In this document: positions 4,529 to 21,509 of the stretch, piece after piece
Position numbering within the stretch: position 1 is the stretch's first letter
Layout of the letters: each line of letters begins with the position of its first letter
Source: a virus
Virus record (IMG/VR): IMGVR_UViG_3300033153_004364
Location: 1 to 39,579 of that record
DNA length: 39,579 nt
Strand: one strand, 5' to 3'
Notes under the pieces: generated by a model
Told to the model about the DNA's origin: nothing
Database searches by the model: none
Seen by the model: only the letters and a program-made list of their open reading frames with translations
Translations under genes and position numbers: made by a program

Positions 4529-4971
4529 ATAATGATATCGAGATCTTTAGAAAAAAGCTTGATATAAAAGCTGCAACAGCTGCGTTTAAACAGATGGAGC
4601 AGGTTAGTTGCCCGGTAACACACCATTTCGCAGATGGGCAGTATGTAAGAGAAACTTTTATGCCCGCAGGTACACTTGTTATAGGCAAGAAGCATAGAAC
4701 AGAGGTTATAAATATACTCTTAAAGGGTAAGATCATTGTGTATATGGGTGAAGATGAGCCGATAAGAGAGCTTACGGCCCCTTGTATCTTTCCTACAGAT
4801 GCAGGAGTGCAAAAGATAGGATATATTAAAGAAGATGTTATCTGGGCGAACTGTCACCCAACAGAACATAAAGATTTAGAAAAAATAGAACAAGATGTTA
4901 TAATAGGCGATGATGAGGATTTATTACTTTATTGTAGTGATGATGAGAACAACACAGAAGAACACCACTAG
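4525..4971 (+). CDS. Cupin-like phage protein
   Basis: A 148-aa protein with a small beta-barrel pattern: 'RETFMPAGTLVIGKKHRTEV' followed by 'NILLKGKIIVYMGED' and 'APCIFPTDAGVQKIGYI'. These correspond to the two cupin motifs (G..H..E-like and PAG..H-like). Proteins of this type occur among tail and ejection genes in podoviruses, with unknown function. The start at 4525 has AGGAG upstream and overlaps the previous stop. The last ~20 residues are very acidic (DDEDL, DDENNTEE), perhaps an interaction tail. Confidence 0.62.
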   Translation: MNNDIEIFRKKLDIKAATAAFKQMEQVSCPVTHHFADGQYVRETFMPAGTLVIGKKHRTEVINILLKGKIIVYMGEDEPIRELTAPCIFPTDAGVQKIGYIKEDVIWANCHPTEHKDLEKIEQDVIIGDDEDLLLYCSDDENNTEEHH

Positions 4972-4981
4972 GAGCATAAAG

Positions 4982-5656
4982 ATGGCATGGATAGCAACAG
5001 CAATAATAGGTTCAGCAGTAATAGGAGGGGTTTCCTCATACCTTGGAGCAGAAGCGCAGGCAGACGCAGCGCAGGCGGCGGCACAAAGTTCAGCGTCAGC
5101 AACAGTTTATAGTATTGATCAGCAAAGAGAAATGTATGAACAGACAAGAACAGATCAAGAGCCTTGGAGACTTGCAGGCGAAAGAGGGTTGGAGCGCATA
5201 GAAGCTACACCAGACTTTGAGTTTACGGCAGAAAGTTTTATGGAAATGAAAGACCCCTCTTATGAATGGAGAGTAGATCAAGGTGTTAAAGCCATGGACG
5301 CTTCGGCAGCATCAAGAGGTAACATGTTTAGTGGTGCAGCAGCAAAGGCCCTTACAGAATACGGGCAAAACATGGGGAGTCAAGAGTATCAAAATGCTTA
5401 CAATAGGGCTGCAGATACTTATGATAGGAACATGAACACACAAAAAGGACTAGCAGGTATAGGACAGCAAGCAACTAACATGGTAGGACAGGCAGGTATG
5501 CAATCAGCAGGAGCGATAGGACGTACTTCTATGGCAGGAGCAGCACAACAAGGAAACTACCTTATGGCAGCAGGTCAGGCCCAGGCAAATATGTATAGCG
5601 GTATAGCGCAATCAGCGAACACCGGGATATCAAATGCACTCACTTATTATTTATAA
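4982..5656 (+). CDS. Ejection / DNA-transfer-type internal virion protein
   Basis: A 224-aa protein beginning with a hydrophobic, glycine-rich helix (residues ~4-20), then a long Ala/Gln/Ser-rich region. A 'PSYEWRVDQGVKAMD..AASRG' block follows, and the C-terminal half is rich in Gly, Ala, Gln and Met. This composition and the 'YEWR..QG..A.D..AA.RG' motif are typical of phage proteins annotated as DNA-transfer proteins (P22 gp7/gp20 group), which leave the virion with the DNA. The start at 4982 follows AGGAG. A start at 4910 would lie inside the cupin-like gene. It is first of three consecutive ejection-type genes. Confidence 0.7.
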   Translation: MAWIATAIIGSAVIGGVSSYLGAEAQADAAQAAAQSSASATVYSIDQQREMYEQTRTDQEPWRLAGERGLERIEATPDFEFTAESFMEMKDPSYEWRVDQGVKAMDASAASRGNMFSGAAAKALTEYGQNMGSQEYQNAYNRAADTYDRNMNTQKGLAGIGQQATNMVGQAGMQSAGAIGRTSMAGAAQQGNYLMAAGQAQANMYSGIAQSANTGISNALTYYL

Positions 5657-6914: not shown

Positions 6915-9900
6915 ATGACTATTAGTGATAATGAAATACAGGTTATAGATGATAGCGAGATAACAGTACAAGAAACGCTTATAAGTGATAGCGATATTGA
7001 AGTCATAGACGATAGTGAAATATCGTTAGCAGAAGAACCCTCTACTCTTGACAAAGTAAAAGACTTTTTCACACCGGAGGAAGAAGGTCCGGACTTAGCG
7101 CAAAGAGATCAAGACATAAGAGACGCTGCAAGAGTCAGAACTTCAAAAATGGCAGAAGAGCAGGGCCTTATCCCAGAAGAAGAAAGTATCACCGCAAGAG
7201 ACGTAGGTACTGCGTATATGAAGGGTTCAGCAGAGATAGCAAAAGGTGTTGGATATCTACTTGAAAAAGCAGGCGCAGAGAAGATAGGTAAAGTAGTAAA
7301 AGAAACAGGGCAGGAAGCTACAGACTATTGGCAAGAAGCCTTTTCGCCACAAGCAAAAAAGAAACAGCAGGAAACCTACACACAAACAGGTACACCAGAC
7401 GATATAGTTTCTACACTCTCATACATAGCAAACAACCCAGGCAAGGTAATGATGGATATCGCAGGGTCAGCCCCGGCCTCTGGTATGGGTATGGCAGGCG
7501 GAGCAGTAATAGGGAAAGCGTTTACTCTTATTCCGAAGATAGGAGAAGGTGTAGCGTATGCAATGGGTTACGGACTTGGAGAAGGTGCTATTTCTGCTTC
7601 AATGGGTGCCATGGAAACAGAAGAGGGTATCTTAGAAATGAGTCATGCAAAACTCATGGAACACCCAGAGTATAGAGCAGTATTCAAAGAAACAAGAGAT
7701 ATAAAGAAATCCAAACAACTTGTGGCAAGTGCAGCAGCAGGAGACAGAGCAGCATTTAATATGCTTACTACTACTATCCTATCTTCCCCAATGGGTTATG
7801 TTTTCGGACCTATACTAAAAGGCAAAGGGAATATAGCAGATGATTTCGCAGACTCTTTCGCAGTAGCGGTAGTAGGAGAAGGAATACAGGAAACTACACA
7901 GTCAGGCGCAGAGAAGATCGGTGAGAATATCGCAGTAGCAGCACATGCAGACCCTAAGATAAAAGCCTTAGATGATGTTGTAGAGGCTATGGTAGCAGGT
8001 GGAATAGCAGGTATGGGAATGGGTGGCGGTATCGCTACCGGTGCAGAACTTCATACAGCATATACCAAAAGCAATCAAGAGAAGATAAGAATTAAAGTTA
8101 TGAGAGATCATGCCTTATCTTTTACTTTCACAAGTTTAACCCCAGAGCAACAGAACCTAAAAGCACAACTTAGTGAAATGCAGTTCACATCATTAACACC
8201 AGAGCAACAAGAGATTAAAGCAGGCCTTGAAAATATGGTCTTTGATAGCTTAACACCAGAGCAGAGAACAGAGGTGCAGGCAGAAGAAGCCAGAATAGCA
8301 GGAGTGCAAAGCAGTTTTAGTGATCTCGTTAAAAAATACGGTGATATCCAATTCCCAGATGAAGTAATAGCAGATATCGCCCTCCAAGAGAGAATTCTTA
8401 AAGAGTATGAGACTATCGAGGAAACAGCAGAAGAGGCACTAGGGAAGAAAGAACCTACTTATGCAGAAATAGTGCAGGAAGAGAAGAAGGAAGCCAAGAA
8501 AGAAGAGGCAGCACTTGAAGAGGTAGGAGACTTCTTTGATGCAGAGGGCAAGAAGCCAGACAGCGCAAGCAAAAGAGCAGCAGGCAGACAAGCAGAGAAG
8601 CGCGAACTCCTAGAAAAACAGCACGGTGCAGACGAGGACATTATCAACGAGAAGATGAAAGTACCTCAAAAGAAGAAAATCTTACCAACAGAAGAGCAGC
8701 AGTATAAAGGGATGAGTAAAGAAGATCTTGCAGAGATAGAAGCCGCGACAAAAACAGAGGAGAGGTTCTTTTTGGGTGGCGAAAGTCCAGGAGCCTACAA
8801 GATAGCAGCAAACCAAGAAGGAATGAATACACCACAAAGCATAAGGGTCATAAGAGAAAGTGACGGTGCAGAGATTATAGCTAACAAAGCAGGACTTCAA
8901 AAGTATTCAGAAGAAGAGAAGGCTAAAAGAACTCAAGGGGAAGTAAAGGCAGCCGAAGAGCAGAAAACCTTTGAAGAAGAGATAGCAGAGAAAGACGCGA
9001 AATTATCACCAGAGCAATTCAAGGAATATGAAACTCTCAATGATACAGTCACAAAGTATTTATCTCCTAAAGAAAAAGCCAGACTTATAGAGCTTGAAGA
9101 AATAAGAGAAGGTAAAGTACCAGAGCCAGAGCCTACAAAAGGCCTCAACAAGTCAGAAGAGTACGAACTCACTAAACTACAAGAGAAAGACGCAGAGGGC
9201 GAACTTGACATAGACGAACAGATGCGCATGGAGGACTTAGAAGATAAGCAACTCAAAGCATACAAAGAAACCAAAAAGGAAAAACTTGACAAATTACCAA
9301 TACCACAAGAAAAAGAAGAGGTTAAAAAAGAGAGTATCTTCAAAGAGAAGCCTATCGAGAGTGAAAAAGACGTAGTATCAACAGAGAAGCACATCGAGAA
9401 GATTAAAGATGATCTCACAAGAGTCAAGAGTTTGGGGTCTAGGAAGAAACTTTTTAAGCATGTAAAAGATATGCAGGCAAAAGTTAAAACATTCAAAGAT
9501 AACATAACAGACAACTATAAAAACTTCACAGACGAAGAGAAGTTAGCTAATCAAGACTTCCTAGATAGCCAATTTCAAGAAAGAGCGCACAATATTTCTA
9601 ATGATCTAGGGCTGTTTAAAGATGAAATGAAAAAACACATTAAATTTACACACATGGGAGCAGGTAAAAATGTTGTTGGTATAGAAATTTATGGAGTTGA
9701 AGATAATCTTCAAGACTATAAACAGTTTTTAAAAGAAGTTGAGCAAGCAAAAGCAAAGAGAGAAACCACAAAAGAAAGAATACACCGCAGAGCATTAGAA
9801 GTAAAAGAAGAAGATAAGCAAGCACTCGACAAAGAAAAAGAGAGAAGAAAAAAGCTTAAAGCTAATCCGCAAGAACACACAAGCGCAGAAGCCAAAGAAA

Positions 9901-12900
9901 TAGTAATAAAAATCATAGGAGAAGAAATCCCTGTAGTCTTACATGGTGTAGAAAAGGATATAACCTATAGTGAAGCATATCAATCACGACAAGGCATAAG
10001 TATGTCACCAGAGATCAGAGCAAGAAGTATTGTCAAGAGTTATGCAGAAGGGATGGCAGAGACATATAAACATCTTAAGCAATATGCAAAAACAGAGGAG
10101 CAACAAGAAACACTTGACACCATGTTTGCAACATATCGTGACGGGATGGTTAAGCGTAAGAAACTAATGCTTGCAAGAGACTCTCGAGTAATGAGTACAA
10201 TGATTACCGGTCCGGCAAACTTTCCTGTCAGAAGCAATCAGAAAAAAAGTGACTCTGCACATAAGGCACTAGAGGACTTAGTAAGCTATGATACTTTTAT
10301 GACTCAAAAGATCAAAAACAAACTCACAGGCAAAGAGGCTATTAAAAGTACAGACGAGGACGCGGTAGAGAAGTTAGAGAAAAAACTTAAAGCCTTGACA
10401 GAAGCGCAAGAGAAAATGAAAACTGCTAACAAGATCATAAGAAGCAAAAAGCTCACAGAGGAAGAGAAAATAAATCAACTTCAAAAAGAATTAAAGTTTA
10501 GTGAAAAAGATGCCAAAGAACTTGTATCTCCTTCACCACAATGGAGAACAAAGCCCGGATTTGCTTCATACTCTCTTACAAACAATAATGCTAAAATCAA
10601 AGCTACCAAACAAAGAATAGCGTCCATTGAGAAGATGCACGAAAGAGCAGAAACAATAGGCACCGAAGAGATCCTTTTTGATGGCGGTAAATTAGTACAA
10701 AACTATGAGATAGACAGGGTACAGTTTTTCTTTGATGGTAAACCAAGTGAAGAGATAAGGACCATGCTTAAAAAGAATGGCTTTAGATACAGTCCTAAAA
10801 ATAATCACGCATGGCAAAGACAGATTACACACCAGGCACAGTACAAAGCTAAAACAATATTAGCAGCACTCAAAGAGTTTAAGTATGAAGAGGCAGAAGC
10901 CGGAGAGGTAAGCAGAAAGTACACAGTAGAAGAACTAATAGAAAATCTTGAAACAGAGAGTTTTGAGATTAAAAACTTTACAGAGAATAAGATAGTCACA
11001 GCGTTGTTTAAATTCGGAGATAAGGGATATTCTTATAGTACCGGAGAGCATAGAGTAGTAATAGGCGAAACAGCAGGACTTACAAAAAAAGAAGTCATTA
11101 AAAGAATAGAGCATGAGATAGTACACTTTAAAACTATTGGCTTTATTGCAGAGAACAGACAAGATAAAAATGTAGTATATGTAGAGAGCGCACTACAGTA
11201 CATGAAAGAACATCAAACAGAAATACTTAACAAACTTAGTCCGGAAAGCAGAAAAAGAGTTAAGTATGTACTCACAAGGACAGCAGGTATAACCAGACTA
11301 GCCGAGGGGATAGCTGTATTGGGCGCAGAGAGCGAAACAGCTAACGACCTATACAAAGTATTGGGCAAAGAAAAAGGAAACCTTAGAGACGCAATAATAA
11401 CCCTTTTAAGAAGAATTAAAAACTTTATTATCAGAAGAAAAACTATTGCTGCACTACAAAAAGAAGATGTGAATTATGAGAAGTTGATAGCTGCAATTTC
11501 ACAGACCATTAAACAAGGAAGCATTTTAAACGAAATGGCCCCAGATGTAGCAAGAATGGCAAGAACTAAGGCAATTAAACAAATGCCTTCAAGAGCTAAA
11601 GAGGTTTCTCAATTTGATTACGGGGAGTTCAAATCAAAGATTGAAACTACCCTTGAAGCAAAAATGCCAAAGGTGGCTACAATAGCACATGTAAAAGGCA
11701 TGCTAAAGGATATCAACAAAGATGAAATGAAATGGAGCGGGCTAGAAGAGTATCTTAATAGTAAAAATGATAACGATAAGGTCATAAAAAAAGAAATACT
11801 TAGAGAGATAAAATTACCAGAACTAGAAAGCGTCACACTTGGAGGGAAAGGAACGAACACCGCTGACCTACCCAAAACAAAAGATGATTTTGAAATATAC
11901 GACACAGATGAAGGAACAACAAACTACCAAAAAGAACTAGGCGACACCACAATATACGCAGACGAAGATAGCGACGGGATATATATAGTTTTAATGGACA
12001 AGGATTATTATAAGACTGATCTTGGTAATTTCGAAACCTGGAACGACGCAATAGAAGGGATAAAAGACGCAGACGAAGAAGGAATGTTTAATACCCCAGG
12101 AAGCACCAAGTTTAAAAACTACACCACAGAAGGCATAGGCACAAACTACAGAGAAGAGTTGGTAGTGCTAACACCAGAGGCAAAAACACGCATTAAGAAA
12201 ATAGATAGTGAGTTAAAGGTTTTAAATAAAGAGAGGGATATTTTATTTAAAGATGAAAAAGGGGATTTTGATTTCTTTAGATCACTCGACAACAAAGAAA
12301 CACCAGAAGCAAAAGCAAGAATTACAAACGCAAATAAAATAGATGCACTAGAGAAAGAGAAAGAGTCTTTATTATTGGAAGAGGACACGCAATACAAATC
12401 CGGCCATTGGGACAAGCCAAACGTACTCTATCACACAAGAAAACAAGACGCTAAGATAGACGGCGATAATACTTTACTTGTAGAAGAGATACAGAGTGAT
12501 TGGCACCAAGAGGGGAGGAAGAAGGGGTATAAGTCAAATAGAATTACAGCAAATCAAGTTGAAGCAGTACACCACAAAGGAGAGCAAGACGGCTCCCCTG
12601 GGTATTGGGAGTCCAGGGTAAAAGAAACAGGAGAACTGATACTGCGAGATCGTGGAGGGATTACTAAAAAAGAAGCAATAAAAGAAGCAGTACATGTACA
12701 CAATTCTCTTATTGGAGAAAAAGGAGTACCCCAAGCACCATACGCAAAAACATGGCACGAAAAAGCCATGAAGGATATCATAGCCGAAGCAGTAGAGAAA
12801 AACTATGGCCGTGTGGCATGGGTAGCAGGGAAAGAACAGGCTGATAGGTATAGTTTGGCGAAACAAATAGATGAGTTGGATTTACACGAAAAAGAAGGTG

Positions 12901-15900
12901 TATTCACAATATATGCAAGAAAAGGTGGTCACTCTGTTTTTTCACAAGACGGACTATCTGAAAAGCAAATAGAGGACTATGTAGGGAAAGAAGCGGCAAG
13001 GAAACTATTAAAACAGAAGCCTTCTGAATATAATCAATTTGGATATTCAGCTAGAAGCTTAAGTGGTATGGAGTTAGAAGTCGGTGGCGAAGGCATGAAA
13101 ACCTTTTACGACTCAATGCTTCCAAAGTGGACAAACAAATACATTAAAAAATATGACTCAAAAGTAGAGGTAAAAAAACTTGATAACGGCCAAGAGGTTT
13201 GGAGTTTTGAAGTAACCCCAAAAATGAAAGAGCAGATCACTAAAGAAGGACAGCCTTTATATGGTTCTTCTTTGACACCATCTAGCACTATGCGCCCTGG
13301 GTTTATTCACCTGGGAGACATGGCAAACCTACCTTTTGAGCTTACAGGAATGATAAACAAAGCTAAAAACGTACTCGATACGGTAGTGTCTCAAAAAGTA
13401 ACAGGCAAAATAAAAGGAACCAAGCTTGATGATTTTATCAGAAGAATAGGAGGAAGCCAGGCAGGACTAGGATTATTAACTAGATCACAAGAGCAATCTT
13501 TTGTTAGACACTTTAGATCACTCCAAAGAAAACTTGCAAAGGCAGATATCTCCGCAGAAGAAAAAGCAAAGCTCATAGATGAGAGCCAAGGCAGATTAAC
13601 AGATGATGTATTCAACCAGGTATCGATACAATACTTAGAGAACCCAGAAGCAAGAGGGGTGATAGAGTCAGAGTTCCCAGAGTTAGCAGAAGAACTTAAA
13701 AGAGTAAGAGAATATATTAGCAACCTAAGTTTAGAAGCTATGGAGAGAGGGCTTATCCTACCAAGTCAATTTGAGAAATGGAAAGATCGATATCTATCAA
13801 GACTCTACCTTCTTACACAAAAGCCGCAAATGGCCTCGAGGTTAGCAAGTGGGATTAAGCTCTATGAGCAAAAGGCAGGCAGAAAGATAGATAGTATTGT
13901 CGATTACCTCATGGAGAACCCAGAAGAAGCTGCAAGATTAGGCGCAGTCCTTGATATCGATATGGTAGTTAAGACTACAATCGCTAAAACACAAGGGAAC
14001 ATAGGCCTAGAAGAGTTTATGCGCGGGATAACTGAACGGTCCGAGATCGTTTCAAGTAGGCACCTAGTAACTATTCCTTTCAGGGTTGAGAACTTACCTA
14101 CAAAGTTTAGTCCTATTTACGCAAAAGAAACTTTTATTCCTTATCTGCAAGACATGATAGCAAGACTTGATAAGTCCACGCACCTTTCAGCAGACATGCA
14201 GGAAATAGCCAGAGCAGAAGCGGGAATACTAAAATTAGAGAAGATCATCGAACTTGCAGCAGAGAGGGCGGAAGTAGCACAAAGTGAAATCAGTTTACTT
14301 GATGATAAAACAAAAGCTACTCTACCAAAAGATAAAAGATACGGTGTACTCTCTGGACTCCCGGTATCTAAAGACGTAGCAAGCTTAGTGATCTCTCAGT
14401 TTAATGTTGTGAACAACCCAGAAATGCTTACAGATGGCATAGATACTTACGGGGCTAAGTTCTTATCTTATTTCAAATGGGCCAAAGTACCGGCAAATGT
14501 ATTCGCGTACCCTAGAAACTTTGCGAGTAATGCTTTTCAATGGACTATGAGCGGGGCAGACCCGGCACAATTTGGGAAAGAATACGCTAGGGCAGCGTTC
14601 AGTATGTATAAGCGAGATAAATGGCACAGAATAGCAAGAGAGGCAGGAGTATTAGATACAAATGCGATATCAGCAGAAGTAAACAATGCCTTAAAGATTT
14701 GGTCAGAGGGGATAGAGGAGGGAAGCTTCTTAAAGAAAAAAACACTTGCAATCATGCAGAATGTAGGCGATTATTACGGGCTTATTGATGATGTAGCCAA
14801 AATAGCAAGAATACGCTACGCAGTAGAGAAAGAAGGGAAGAGTATAGAGGAAGCGGTAGAGATTGCACAGAACACACACTATGACTACTCTTTGACCTAC
14901 GATATCATTAGAGCTATGAGAGACCCTAATATGACAAGAGGGGCCATGCTTAAGATCATTGGTACAGTCTTTCCAACATATACACAAAAGACAGTAGCCT
15001 ATGTATATGATACTATGCTAGAAAGACCGGTTACTTTTGCATTAATGAACGCTGCTTTATATATGTTCTTGCATGGTGATGATGATGAAACCAGAGAGGA
15101 GATAGGAGCAGCAGACTATGACGAGACAATGGATAAGCTACCAGATTGGATAAAGTATAATCCGATGGCCAGAGTGGACATGAAGAGACTTAAAGATGGT
15201 ACGATTGATGTAACGATAGTTGATCTTGCTTATATTATCCCTTATGGAACCCTAAACACCGCAGCAAATAACCTGGTCATGGGAACGATAGAGGGTGATT
15301 TTAAAAGGATAGGTACCGGTATAGGGGGTATTGGATTAGGAGGTTCTCCTATTATGATGCTAGGAGACTTTATAGCGAACAAAAGTACATTTACAGGCAA
15401 AACGCTTTACTACGAACACGATACAATGCAATTCATTAAGGATACCGGAATGTATGGGTTTAAACAGTTAGGCCCGGGAACCTTTACAAAACTATACAGC
15501 CTATCAGAAACAAGGCACCCGATAGTTCCTAGACTTGTAGGGCTTAATACTTATGTATATAACGATACCGACCTAGAAAGCATGAGAGAGGGAGCAGCAA
15601 AAAGAGCCTCAACAGATGCAGCAATAAGAGGGAGTAAATATAAAAGACTCATTACAGACGCAAAAGAAGAGTATCGCAAAGGCAACATTACCAAGGAAGA
15701 GAGAGACGCAAAAATAAAGAAGTCACAGGCAGACGTAGAGCATTGGGAAGATTTAGGGCAAAAGGCATTTGACAAGATAAGCAGCAGATCAAAAGAGTTT
15801 AAAGCTTATAGTGCAGAAGCAAGAGACGTAAGACGTGCCTTTAGAGAGTACAACGCACTAAAGAGAAAGGCAAAGAAAGATAAAAGCTACGCGGAAGAGT

Positions 15901-16118
15901 TCTTTGACATAAAGAGCGACCCAGAGAAGATGCTAAAAGTTAGAAAAAAGAAGATCATCAACAAAGTAGGAAGAGAAACAAAATACATCAAAAAACAAAG
16001 AGAGAAGATCTTACTCAATGTCACAGGTGATGCAAAAAGAAAACAAATGATGAAGGTGCTTGATGAAAGAGAGCGAACAATGTATAATAGGGCTTACAAA
16101 GCCTTAACCAAACAATAA
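6915..16118 (+). CDS. Giant (3067-aa) polyvalent / ejection protein with zincin-like motif
   Basis: Nearly a quarter of the genome. The N-terminus has two copies of a 'VIDDSEI' motif. Residues ~180-375 have glycine-rich hydrophobic segments and 'VGEGIQETTQSGAEK', common in large phage internal proteins. Three 'SLTPEQ' repeats follow (405-455), then ~500 residues of charged coiled coil. A block at ~1267-1315 holds 'GKPSEEIRTMLKKNGFRYSP' and 'WQRQ'. HEIVH (1400-1404) is a zinc-peptidase-type HExxH. A polyvalent-protein block spans 1856-2086 ('VEEIQSDWH', 'RVAWVAGKEQADRY', 'EGMKTFYD'). A module near 2523-2550 ('ANVFAYPRNFASNAF') and a basic helical tail finish it. It follows two ejection genes and is probably injected. 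Individual activities are inferred. Confidence 0.8.
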   Translation: MTISDNEIQVIDDSEITVQETLISDSDIEVIDDSEISLAEEPSTLDKVKDFFTPEEEGPDLAQRDQDIRDAARVRTSKMAEEQGLIPEEESITARDVGTAYMKGSAEIAKGVGYLLEKAGAEKIGKVVKETGQEATDYWQEAFSPQAKKKQQETYTQTGTPDDIVSTLSYIANNPGKVMMDIAGSAPASGMGMAGGAVIGKAFTLIPKIGEGVAYAMGYGLGEGAISASMGAMETEEGILEMSHAKLMEHPEYRAVFKETRDIKKSKQLVASAAAGDRAAFNMLTTTILSSPMGYVFGPILKGKGNIADDFADSFAVAVVGEGIQETTQSGAEKIGENIAVAAHADPKIKALDDVVEAMVAGGIAGMGMGGGIATGAELHTAYTKSNQEKIRIKVMRDHALSFTFTSLTPEQQNLKAQLSEMQFTSLTPEQQEIKAGLENMVFDSLTPEQRTEVQAEEARIAGVQSSFSDLVKKYGDIQFPDEVIADIALQERILKEYETIEETAEEALGKKEPTYAEIVQEEKKEAKKEEAALEEVGDFFDAEGKKPDSASKRAAGRQAEKRELLEKQHGADEDIINEKMKVPQKKKILPTEEQQYKGMSKEDLAEIEAATKTEERFFLGGESPGAYKIAANQEGMNTPQSIRVIRESDGAEIIANKAGLQKYSEEEKAKRTQGEVKAAEEQKTFEEEIAEKDAKLSPEQFKEYETLNDTVTKYLSPKEKARLIELEEIREGKVPEPEPTKGLNKSEEYELTKLQEKDAEGELDIDEQMRMEDLEDKQLKAYKETKKEKLDKLPIPQEKEEVKKESIFKEKPIESEKDVVSTEKHIEKIKDDLTRVKSLGSRKKLFKHVKDMQAKVKTFKDNITDNYKNFTDEEKLANQDFLDSQFQERAHNISNDLGLFKDEMKKHIKFTHMGAGKNVVGIEIYGVEDNLQDYKQFLKEVEQAKAKRETTKERIHRRALEVKEEDKQALDKEKERRKKLKANPQEHTSAEAKEIVIKIIGEEIPVVLHGVEKDITYSEAYQSRQGISMSPEIRARSIVKSYAEGMAETYKHLKQYAKTEEQQETLDTMFATYRDGMVKRKKLMLARDSRVMSTMITGPANFPVRSNQKKSDSAHKALEDLVSYDTFMTQKIKNKLTGKEAIKSTDEDAVEKLEKKLKALTEAQEKMKTANKIIRSKKLTEEEKINQLQKELKFSEKDAKELVSPSPQWRTKPGFASYSLTNNNAKIKATKQRIASIEKMHERAETIGTEEILFDGGKLVQNYEIDRVQFFFDGKPSEEIRTMLKKNGFRYSPKNNHAWQRQITHQAQYKAKTILAALKEFKYEEAEAGEVSRKYTVEELIENLETESFEIKNFTENKIVTALFKFGDKGYSYSTGEHRVVIGETAGLTKKEVIKRIEHEIVHFKTIGFIAENRQDKNVVYVESALQYMKEHQTEILNKLSPESRKRVKYVLTRTAGITRLAEGIAVLGAESETANDLYKVLGKEKGNLRDAIITLLRRIKNFIIRRKTIAALQKEDVNYEKLIAAISQTIKQGSILNEMAPDVARMARTKAIKQMPSRAKEVSQFDYGEFKSKIETTLEAKMPKVATIAHVKGMLKDINKDEMKWSGLEEYLNSKNDNDKVIKKEILREIKLPELESVTLGGKGTNTADLPKTKDDFEIYDTDEGTTNYQKELGDTTIYADEDSDGIYIVLMDKDYYKTDLGNFETWNDAIEGIKDADEEGMFNTPGSTKFKNYTTEGIGTNYREELVVLTPEAKTRIKKIDSELKVLNKERDILFKDEKGDFDFFRSLDNKETPEAKARITNANKIDALEKEKESLLLEEDTQYKSGHWDKPNVLYHTRKQDAKIDGDNTLLVEEIQSDWHQEGRKKGYKSNRITANQVEAVHHKGEQDGSPGYWESRVKETGELILRDRGGITKKEAIKEAVHVHNSLIGEKGVPQAPYAKTWHEKAMKDIIAEAVEKNYGRVAWVAGKEQADRYSLAKQIDELDLHEKEGVFTIYARKGGHSVFSQDGLSEKQIEDYVGKEAARKLLKQKPSEYNQFGYSARSLSGMELEVGGEGMKTFYDSMLPKWTNKYIKKYDSKVEVKKLDNGQEVWSFEVTPKMKEQITKEGQPLYGSSLTPSSTMRPGFIHLGDMANLPFELTGMINKAKNVLDTVVSQKVTGKIKGTKLDDFIRRIGGSQAGLGLLTRSQEQSFVRHFRSLQRKLAKADISAEEKAKLIDESQGRLTDDVFNQVSIQYLENPEARGVIESEFPELAEELKRVREYISNLSLEAMERGLILPSQFEKWKDRYLSRLYLLTQKPQMASRLASGIKLYEQKAGRKIDSIVDYLMENPEEAARLGAVLDIDMVVKTTIAKTQGNIGLEEFMRGITERSEIVSSRHLVTIPFRVENLPTKFSPIYAKETFIPYLQDMIARLDKSTHLSADMQEIARAEAGILKLEKIIELAAERAEVAQSEISLLDDKTKATLPKDKRYGVLSGLPVSKDVASLVISQFNVVNNPEMLTDGIDTYGAKFLSYFKWAKVPANVFAYPRNFASNAFQWTMSGADPAQFGKEYARAAFSMYKRDKWHRIAREAGVLDTNAISAEVNNALKIWSEGIEEGSFLKKKTLAIMQNVGDYYGLIDDVAKIARIRYAVEKEGKSIEEAVEIAQNTHYDYSLTYDIIRAMRDPNMTRGAMLKIIGTVFPTYTQKTVAYVYDTMLERPVTFALMNAALYMFLHGDDDETREEIGAADYDETMDKLPDWIKYNPMARVDMKRLKDGTIDVTIVDLAYIIPYGTLNTAANNLVMGTIEGDFKRIGTGIGGIGLGGSPIMMLGDFIANKSTFTGKTLYYEHDTMQFIKDTGMYGFKQLGPGTFTKLYSLSETRHPIVPRLVGLNTYVYNDTDLESMREGAAKRASTDAAIRGSKYKRLITDAKEEYRKGNITKEERDAKIKKSQADVEHWEDLGQKAFDKISSRSKEFKAYSAEARDVRRAFREYNALKRKAKKDKSYAEEFFDIKSDPEKMLKVRKKKIINKVGRETKYIKKQREKILLNVTGDAKRKQMMKVLDERERTMYNRAYKALTKQ
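8127..8283 (+). repeat. Three tandem 'SLTPEQ' protein repeats in the giant gene
   Basis: Three successive copies encode F-(T/D)-SLTPEQ followed by charged helix-forming residues (KAQLSEMQ, KAGLENMV and a diverged third copy). The first begins at residue 405. The period is about 17 residues. Copies differ at synonymous positions (acc cca, aca cca), so the duplication is old or kept by protein-level selection. The repeats join the hydrophobic N-terminal region to the coiled-coil region. Confidence 0.7.
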
Positions 16119-18000: not shown

Positions 18001-18038
18001 AATACCCTAATTTAAAAAGGAGTGAAAATTAGGGTATT
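18001..18038 (+). terminator. 13-bp perfect hairpin just after the late block
   Basis: Bases 18001-18013 pair perfectly with 18026-18038. The loop is 12 bases of mostly purine (AAAAAGGAGTGA). It begins six bases after the last late-gene stop. On the + strand only a short T run ends the stem, but read on the - strand the stem is followed by GTTTTTT, so it would terminate better in that direction. It may be a bidirectional terminator between late and early blocks, or part of a structured 3' end with the next element. Confidence 0.65.
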
Positions 18039-20050: not shown

Positions 20051-20468
20051 ATTTAAATATATTTGGGAAAATGACATAACAGGGGAATTTACATATAAAG
20101 TTTTTTCCCTTACAGAGATTGAGTGTGGCTTTCTTTCAAGGTTTACAAAAAACGAACTTTGTGAAGACCATGATATTCATTTAGGTAGGGCTGAATACAC
20201 AGGACTCAAAGACAAAAACGGTGTAGAGATTTATGAGGGGGATGTTATTATATGCACTAGATATACAGGAGGAAAGAAAGAAGGGCAAATATATTCTAGT
20301 TTTCATGTTAAATATGAGACATATGATATTGGCTCAAATGGATATGAATATTCAAATATAATACACGGTTTGCTTGTTGAAGATGAATATTTATACGGTC
20401 TAATGACTGAAGGTAAAACTGAAGTAATCGGAAACATATACGAAAACCCAGAGCTATTAAATGCCTAA
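20037..20468 (+). CDS. YopX-family phage protein
   Basis: A 143-aa protein with the YopX pattern: 'EYTGLKDKNGVEIYEGDVI' in the middle and 'TEVIGNIYENPELL' at the end. YopX proteins are widespread in phages and their function is not known. The ATG at 20037 has AAGGAG seven bases upstream; a TTG at 20031 is less likely. It overlaps the NinG-like gene at its start and the small zinc protein at its end. Confidence 0.85.
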   Translation: MREHKFKYIWENDITGEFTYKVFSLTEIECGFLSRFTKNELCEDHDIHLGRAEYTGLKDKNGVEIYEGDVIICTRYTGGKKEGQIYSSFHVKYETYDIGSNGYEYSNIIHGLLVEDEYLYGLMTEGKTEVIGNIYENPELLNA

Positions 20469-20622
20469 AAGAGTATGCTGCTTATGTGGAGAGCCTAATC
20501 ACAGAAAGACGAGATCTACATGTACTCTTTCTTGTGAAAGGGTGCGACTTTTTAGAAGTAAGATAAGATGCAGGGAAATAAATAAAGGAGAAAAGCCGGT
20601 AACTGAAAAAACTATGGTATAA
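20461..20622 (+). CDS. 53-aa zinc-finger-like protein
   Basis: A basic protein with cysteines at 6, 7, 9, 21, 25 and 37 (CCLC near the start, C...C in 'TCTLSC'), suggesting one small zinc knuckle. The start overlaps the end of the YopX gene by eight bases. The stop lies within the promoter at 20615-20623, so the end of this gene doubles as promoter sequence for the downstream RNA. Function unknown. Confidence 0.55.
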   Translation: MPKRVCCLCGEPNHRKTRSTCTLSCERVRLFRSKIRCREINKGEKPVTEKTMV

Positions 20623-20623
20623 T
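20615..20623 (+). promoter_or_regulatory. Promoter, extended -10 (TGGTATAAT)
   Basis: A perfect TGnTATAAT, giving an expected start near 20630, just ahead of the cloverleaf-like RNA. An inverted repeat, ACTGAA (20602-20607) and TTCAGT (20626-20631), flanks the -10 and could be an operator. No -35 is evident. Confidence 0.65.
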
Positions 20624-20641
20624 AATTCAGTAACTTGAAAA

Positions 20642-20731
20642 GTCGTCCAGACTCTCGAGTCCTCTATCTTTTAGAGGGCGACCTTTGAGGTTACTAACTT
20701 TTGTTAGGTTTATGTAGAGAGTTTGGACGAC
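20642..20731 (+). ncRNA. Cloverleaf-like structured RNA / leader before the replication gene
   Basis: A 15-bp closing stem pairs 20642-20656 with 20717-20731 (one G-U, rest Watson-Crick). Within it are three hairpins. The first is 20659-20666 with 20672-20679 (8 bp including one G-U, loop UCUUU). The second is 20681-20684 with 20688-20691 (4 bp, triloop). The third is 20694-20698 with 20703-20707 (5 bp, UUUU loop). The leader's AGTAAC (20629-20634) can also pair with GTTACT (20690-20695), an alternative fold. There is no T run after it, so it is probably transcribed with the gene at 20772. It is not a tRNA: no TPsiC-type arm, no CCA-type acceptor, and the stem is twice too long. Confidence 0.65.
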
Positions 20732-20771
20732 ATTCTATCAACCTTAAATTCAAATGTTCCGAAAGCACAGC

Positions 20772-21509
20772 ATGGCTACAAAATTCATTACTGTTTCAGT
20801 AGAGATAATGCGAGATCAAAATCTTAATCAAAGTCAAAAGTTTTTACTTGCAGAAATTGAACAACTCACAACACTAGAGAAAGGATGTATTGCTTCAAAT
20901 CTACATTTTTCAAATCTAATAGGCATAACAAAAGAGAATGTATCAAGAAATATAAATGATCTACAAAAAAAGGGATATATTTATACAGAAATTGTATCTG
21001 GTAGCCGTAACCATACTAGAATAATAACCCTTACTACTTTAGTAAGACCCCCTTATCAAAATAGTAAGACCCCCTTACTAAAACAGCAAGAGACTATAGA
21101 GAATAAACCAACTAATAAACCAACTAATAAAACAAAAGAGAAATCTCTCTCTAAAATAAAACCAAAAGGTTTTAAATATCCAGAGGTGTTTGACCTTATT
21201 TGGATGCATAATAGAAAAGGTGATAAATGGAAAGCCTATAGAGCCTATTATCCCATAAGATTTGAATATTCAATAGAGAAGTTGCAAAAAGCATTACAGA
21301 TAGAGGCATCAAAAACTTATGGAAGAAGAGATACTTCAACTGTTTTTAATGGAGATATTGATGATTTATTACTACAAGAACAAAGCATTAAAACACACCC
21401 AACTTTTAAAAGCAAAGAACCACAAGTAGGCTCTCTTGAATGGAAGAGACAGCAACAACTTAAACAGCAAGAGGAGACAATAGATGCAGAACTTATACAG
21501 ACTAGCTAA
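20772..21509 (+). CDS. HTH replication protein
   Basis: A 245-aa protein. Residues 1-90 are a winged-helix domain ('QSQKFLLAEIEQLTTLEKGC', then 'LIGITKENVSRNINDLQKKG'), like the HTH_36 domain of phage and plasmid replication initiators. A Lys/Thr/Asn-rich linker follows, then a second helical domain ('WKAYRAYYPIRFEYSIEKLQ'). It is the best replication initiator/loader candidate here. Neither ATG (20754 or 20772) has a good ribosome site. 20772 is chosen because homologous proteins start just before 'KFITVSVE'. The 140-base structured leader and poor ribosome site suggest translational control. Confidence 0.72.
   Translation: MATKFITVSVEIMRDQNLNQSQKFLLAEIEQLTTLEKGCIASNLHFSNLIGITKENVSRNINDLQKKGYIYTEIVSGSRNHTRIITLTTLVRPPYQNSKTPLLKQQETIENKPTNKPTNKTKEKSLSKIKPKGFKYPEVFDLIWMHNRKGDKWKAYRAYYPIRFEYSIEKLQKALQIEASKTYGRRDTSTVFNGDIDDLLLQEQSIKTHPTFKSKEPQVGSLEWKRQQQLKQQEETIDAELIQTS

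Follow-up and report, generated by a model that had tools for sequence, protein, structure and literature searches.

A covarying leader RNA with two competing folds ahead of replication initiators and antirepressors in uncultivated phages: a possible switch for starting phage growth

What is the structured RNA that lies directly ahead of the replication gene in this phage, and how might it act there? The DNA analysed (the window) is the whole of a 39,579-nucleotide virus record (IMGVR_UViG_3300033153_004364). An earlier note, made from the letters of the DNA, had described a promoter-driven RNA with a 15-bp stem enclosing three hairpins. The minimum-energy fold contains this arrangement: the stem 20642-20656/20717-20731, with one G-U pair, encloses hairpins at 20659-20679, 20680-20692, and 20694-20707. 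Its energy is -47.3 kcal/mol, which none of 200 shuffles matched (z -7.4). When 1316 windows were tiled along the record, the strongest fold fell in the leader region (z -5.7), and no other ungapped stem with a span of up to 180 nt is as long as this one. The RNA also belongs to no catalogued class, as had been claimed. Rfam gave no family at the gathering score in the window or the relatives examined, except an abiF RNA elsewhere in one relative (RF03085, L220:114-150, 42.4 bits). ARAGORN predicted no tRNA or tmRNA, and that identity was rejected. The description as a promoter-driven structured RNA ahead of a replication gene was correct, the promoter being predicted from sequence.

Most direct searches for relatives were negative. 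The replication protein alone as query found nothing in viral and genome collections, and a genome scan with the alignment of replication proteins also found nothing. BLASTN against phages and plasmids gave nothing, and a stem pattern search gave no relatives; a 14-base stem pattern gave, among the matches listed, at least about the number expected by chance. Portal-based relatives had neither the replication gene nor the RNA in common with the window, and a single-sequence model did not match in them. A profile of three distant initiators retrieved nine closer relatives of the gene, and their alignment retrieved more. A DNA pattern taken from the leaders of these relatives led to phages with other downstream genes. 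Altogether, 12 model-aligned copies and 6 more divergent ones were collected from uncultivated phages (metagenomic viral contigs), each ahead of a start codon. The canonical copy is present in 10 distinct phages, including the window; the model also found a second copy in L315 (E 3e-11) and one in L220 (E 2.5e-4). The divergent copies (L221, L222, L225, L229, L300, and L306) were recognised by eye, and afterwards by strand tests. As a negative control, the same model had no match in 9 portal-related records. BLASTN of two better-conserved members against named phages, and of one of them against plasmids, gave chance-level matches only. No described leader of such kind was found in the open-access literature.

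Across these distant phages, structure was kept more than sequence. The conserved set consists of a long stem (P1), a hairpin (P2), two pseudoknots (PK1 and PK2), and the motif UGUUCYGAAAG before AUG; the element spans from just past a promoter-like site to the start codon. The features of the window, all on the plus strand, are as follows.

20615-20623, plus strand: extended -10 promoter element TGGTATAAT, predicted from sequence
20629-20636, plus strand: PK1 5' strand (AGUAACUU), pairs with 20688-20695, covaries
20642-20656, plus strand: P1 5' strand, covaries with 20717-20731; its first 7 nt are strand 1 of the putative switch
20659-20679, plus strand: P2 hairpin, 20659-20666 with 20672-20679, from the fold and covariation
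20676-20682, plus strand: strand 2 (GGGCGAC), alternative partner of strand 1, from covariation and forced-state energies
20688-20695, plus strand: PK1 3' strand (AGGUUACU), covaries
20706-20718, plus strand: PK2 5' strands, AGGUU 20706-20710 and GUAGA 20714-20718, covary
20717-20731, plus strand: P1 3' strand, strand 3 of the putative switch, covaries
20734-20744, plus strand: PK2 3' strands, UCUAU 20734-20738 and AACCU 20740-20744, covary
20755-20765, plus strand: conserved UGUUCCGAAAG motif; UCCGAA 20758-20763 (strand 4) can pair with strand 3 (20722-20727), weakly supported
20772-21509, plus strand: replication initiator gene (winged helix), start fixed by relatives
21028-21093, plus strand: three 22-bp iterons in the initiator gene, the likely origin

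From 5' to 3', the canonical order is PK1 strand, P1 strand 1, P2, strand 2, PK1 strand, PK2 strand, P1 strand 3, PK2 strand, UGUUCYGAAAG, and AUG. The last 2 nt of GUAGA in PK2 overlap the inner end of P1. This RNA structure is well supported. On a structure-blind MAFFT alignment, 14 of the 33 pairs in P1, P2, PK1, and PK2 showed double changes (6.3 in shuffles; 0/500 shuffles did as well), and 88.9% of the cells pair, dropping to 29-49% in slid controls. PK1 and PK2 also covary (0/500 shuffles) on alignment A7, for which the model was fitted to P1 and P2 only and did not include the pseudoknots. Comparison of own with swapped strands in 18 members gave 8.94 versus 5.32 of 9 for P1 and 6.78 versus 3.78 of 7 for PK1 (both 0/20000 permutations); the same test gave 2/20000 for PK2b. 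Because visual inspection supplied the strands of the divergent members, the alignments built by software deserve more weight. The earlier note had proposed to look for relatives without the stem, or with one arm changed alone; the stem held, and its pairs covary. The alternative pairing that it had named is PK1 (20629-20636 with 20688-20695). The four-way junction, by contrast, was not supported as the functional fold: relatives do not conserve cloverleaf hairpins 2 and 3 but keep P1, P2, the two pseudoknots, and an alternative extended hairpin.

The genes downstream of the RNA vary. HTH initiators follow it in the window, L223, and L301, and in the divergent L221, L222, L225, and L229; a DnaD-like initiator follows in L314, an AntA antirepressor in L220 (E 7.7e-22), a DUF6291 protein in L358, and unknown ORFs in L226, L227, L308, and L328. 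The 60.8 kb phage L315 has two copies (2111-2246 and 5186-5328), ahead of a weakly Rha-like protein and a KilA-N protein, and their PK1, PK2, and P1 sequences differ. Since the downstream genes differ, the RNA and the start codon travel as a unit, and a promoter-like site usually lies directly before the RNA. A replication-origin RNA had been among the earlier proposals; an origin RNA tied to the replication gene was rejected, as the antirepressor and unrelated genes found downstream in other phages speak against it.

The predicted RNA start is at about 20630, from TGGTATAAT. The strong extended -10 of the earlier note is present, but the spacing given there is not: the stem begins 12 nt after the predicted RNA start, not 12 bases after the -10. 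TATAAT is also found shortly upstream of the element in L220, L222, L226, L306, L315, L316, and L358. An extended -10 without a clear -35 would suit a Campylobacterota host. An unlisted 54-codon ORF (20461-20622) with a Cys-rich, zinc-ribbon-like start has its stop codon within the -10 element. The initiator gene starts at ATG 20772, not at the longer ORF start 20754, because the relatives begin MATKFITVSIEIM at that codon. There is almost no GGAG complementarity at this start, in line with the earlier remark that the gene lacks a good ribosome site, and a GGAG-type site precedes most genes of this phage. The place where such a site would be expected is occupied by UGUUCYGAAAG, which lies 5-9 nt before the ORF start in 10/10 canonical members despite their differing genes. 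GAAAG could be a weak ribosome site in hosts whose 16S RNA ends in CUUUC (-4 to -5 kcal/mol), so the lack of a ribosome site is not absolute. The divergent L221 has an ordinary AAAGGA ribosome site, and the divergent L229 is without the motif. Where the same initiator has no RNA directly upstream (L220, L224, and L228), an ordinary ribosome site is found.

Strand 1 (20642-20648) has two covarying partners: strand 3, forming P1, and strand 2, forming the extended hairpin. Strand 2 lies just 5' of the PK1 3' strand, and the extended hairpin (20629-20648/20676-20695) joins the 1:2 helix to PK1; as read from the sequence, about 18 of its 20 positions pair in the window. The 1:2 helix covaries in 9 of 13 pairs (0/500 shuffles). 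For example, GCGUCC on the 5' side occurs with GGGCGU and GGACGC; GUGUCC occurs with GGACAU, GGGCAU, or (G-U) GGGCGU, and with GGACAC; and GUCGUCC in the window occurs with GGGCGAC and GGACGAC. The per-strand swap test of the 1:2 helix alone was weaker (177/20000), because few variants exist. In forced folds, pseudoknot energy excluded, the gap between the P1 state and the extended hairpin ranged from -1.5 to 7.6 kcal/mol over 8 relatives, such as L328 (-34.9/-33.9), L301 (-39.8/-41.3), and L227 (-35.2/-32.8). The window, calculated in the same way, has -47.9/-37.2; its P1 fold is better by 10.7 kcal/mol, so a switch there would need help. RNAalifold set strand 3 against UGUUC. Another register that fits is UUUGGA/UCCGAA, strand 3 with strand 4; its counterparts are UUGAGA/UCUCGA in L220 and UUGGUA/UACCGA in L222. 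This 3:4 pairing is invariant in the canonical group, and 181/5000 strand swaps do equally well; in most of the divergent members, strand 4 remains complementary to strand 3 of the same member.

Two competing conserved folds are thus present, and the mechanism beyond them is what we infer from sequence. We give about an even chance to a cis-acting two-state leader that controls translation of the first gene of the lytic operon, here the replication initiator. During transcription, the 1:2 hairpin would form first, because strand 2 is transcribed before strand 3. In the off state, strand 3 would bind strand 4 (UCCGAA), which closely precedes the start codon, and so keep ribosomes from entering. 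In the on state, strand 3 would displace strand 2, forming P1 and both pseudoknots and leaving UGUUCYGAAAG free. The 3:4 pairing is weakly supported, so we infer, rather than observe, this last step and the direction of control. The trigger might be the speed of transcription, a protein of the phage or the host, or further copies of this RNA acting in trans. The RNA appears to be a hitherto undescribed switch that starts phage growth. More tentatively, the promoter, the self-competing double-pseudoknot leader, and the start codon might form a mobile cassette ahead of the gene that commits the phage to replication, with separate pairing specificities for copies in one genome and with initiation not reliant on a normal ribosome site.

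The leader might instead be a static translation aid, which stabilises the 5' end of the mRNA and offers a ribosome landing site (perhaps via S1) in place of the normal ribosome site, the alternative helix being a folding intermediate only. The motif and the start codon do move with the RNA between genes, and the P1 state is far more stable in the window. In the tisB leader of E. coli, binding of 30S and S1, and translation, were proposed to depend on a 5' pseudoknot (PMC7708055); tisB differs in being a toxin gene with an unrelated structure, and its standby site lies about 100 nt ahead of the ribosome site. However, IGR IRES pseudoknots proved dispensable in E. coli, and pseudoknots may not be the active part (PMC9458429). 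The covariation of the 1:2 helix and the near-equal energies in most relatives would also be unneeded, and a static role seems unlikely. The two covarying, mutually exclusive folds would also fit an expression platform, either of a riboswitch or of a leader that binds a protein. The leader might thus be a sensor; still, selection between the two folds by a ligand or by a phage or host protein appears quite improbable, as there is no conserved unpaired aptamer-like core except the start-codon motif, and the downstream genes have no common metabolic theme and suggest no ligand candidate.

The usual view is that protein repressors set the decision genes of phages, and c4 is, to our knowledge, one of few RNA systems known for antirepressor control. 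The present RNA resembles c4 of phages P1 and P7 in leading, in some phages, antirepressor-type genes (AntA in L220 and KilA-N in L315; in the window it leads a replication initiator), and in having a long stem enclosing hairpins, about 80 nt, with complementary sites on both sides. The order of the phage P1 c4 leader is also the same: upstream site, long stem with hairpins, downstream site, start codon. The sites corresponding to the c4 antisense sites, PK1 (upstream) and PK2 (downstream), covary; the strand 4 pairing at the start codon is weak. A c4-like antisense RNA would be cut from the leader as an 80-90 nt RNA and act in trans, repressing transcripts that carry matching sites close to their start codons; immunity or a copy-dependent shut-off would result, with PK1 and PK2 as cis versions of the antisense pairings. 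It is precisely in the pairing segments that the two L315 copies differ, as expected of separate specificities. Nevertheless, such a mode of action is doubtful. Strand 3 and PK2 do not face the downstream target in one continuous antiparallel order, and no integrase or repressor was recognised in the window. The outer-stem strand of the present RNA has alternative partners, unlike that of c4, and the upstream site abuts the stem; the RNA often leads replication initiators and has the start-codon motif. The Rfam c4 model (RF01695) gave no match at E <= 1 in the window and 12 member or relative records (phage P1 control, 68.8 bits), and membership in the c4 family was rejected. As this model finds the c4 of phage P1 and not the present RNA, "is c4" is not supported; the RNA may nevertheless work like c4.

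The nearest replication analogues are presumably the RepZ leaders of IncI plasmids. In IncI and IncB plasmids, an activator pseudoknot in the RepZ leader governs translation of the replication initiator. The present RNA likewise has a pseudoknot in the leader of a replication initiator, but it differs in topology and also leads antirepressor genes. A minus-strand promoter scan at the locus found none; one weak minus-strand -10-like site (TGATAGAAT at 20740) was the only sign of a RepZ-type antisense gene, and no convincing one was found. A RepZ-type leader peptide is not conserved, since the mini-ORF of the window (MFRKHS) is absent as such in L220 and L222. A covarying RNA family ahead of replication initiators and antirepressors suggests broader RNA control of lytic entry. 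The two separable states, and two differently pairing copies in one phage, make the proposed two-state mechanism directly testable. The family also provides a case for how structured leaders function without a standard ribosome site. The aapA1 toxin mRNA of Helicobacter is likewise described as containing metastable structures (PMC6733600); its gene and fold are unrelated to those of the present RNA.

Several other features were observed in the relatives and the window. L300:774-1000 (initiator segment 82% identical) contains an apparent half copy, with the 1:2 hairpin and no P1 partner; after it come a full divergent copy and UGAAAG-AUG. Ahead of the same initiator gene, L309:1490-1690 and L313:2770-2960 share a different leader-like sequence (AGTTTGNCGAC...AGTTTACCAT), which had no Rfam match. 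In the window, the second strongest locus by fold z-score (18001-18038) is a perfect 13-bp hairpin, possibly a terminator, that lies where the tail genes give way to the early region. A single ORF of 3067 aa (6915-16118) lies downstream of a DNA-ejection-like gene (PHROG match 4910-5656). The segment 21955-24313 encodes a PAPS-reductase-domain protein and, after it, C5 and D12 DNA methyltransferases.
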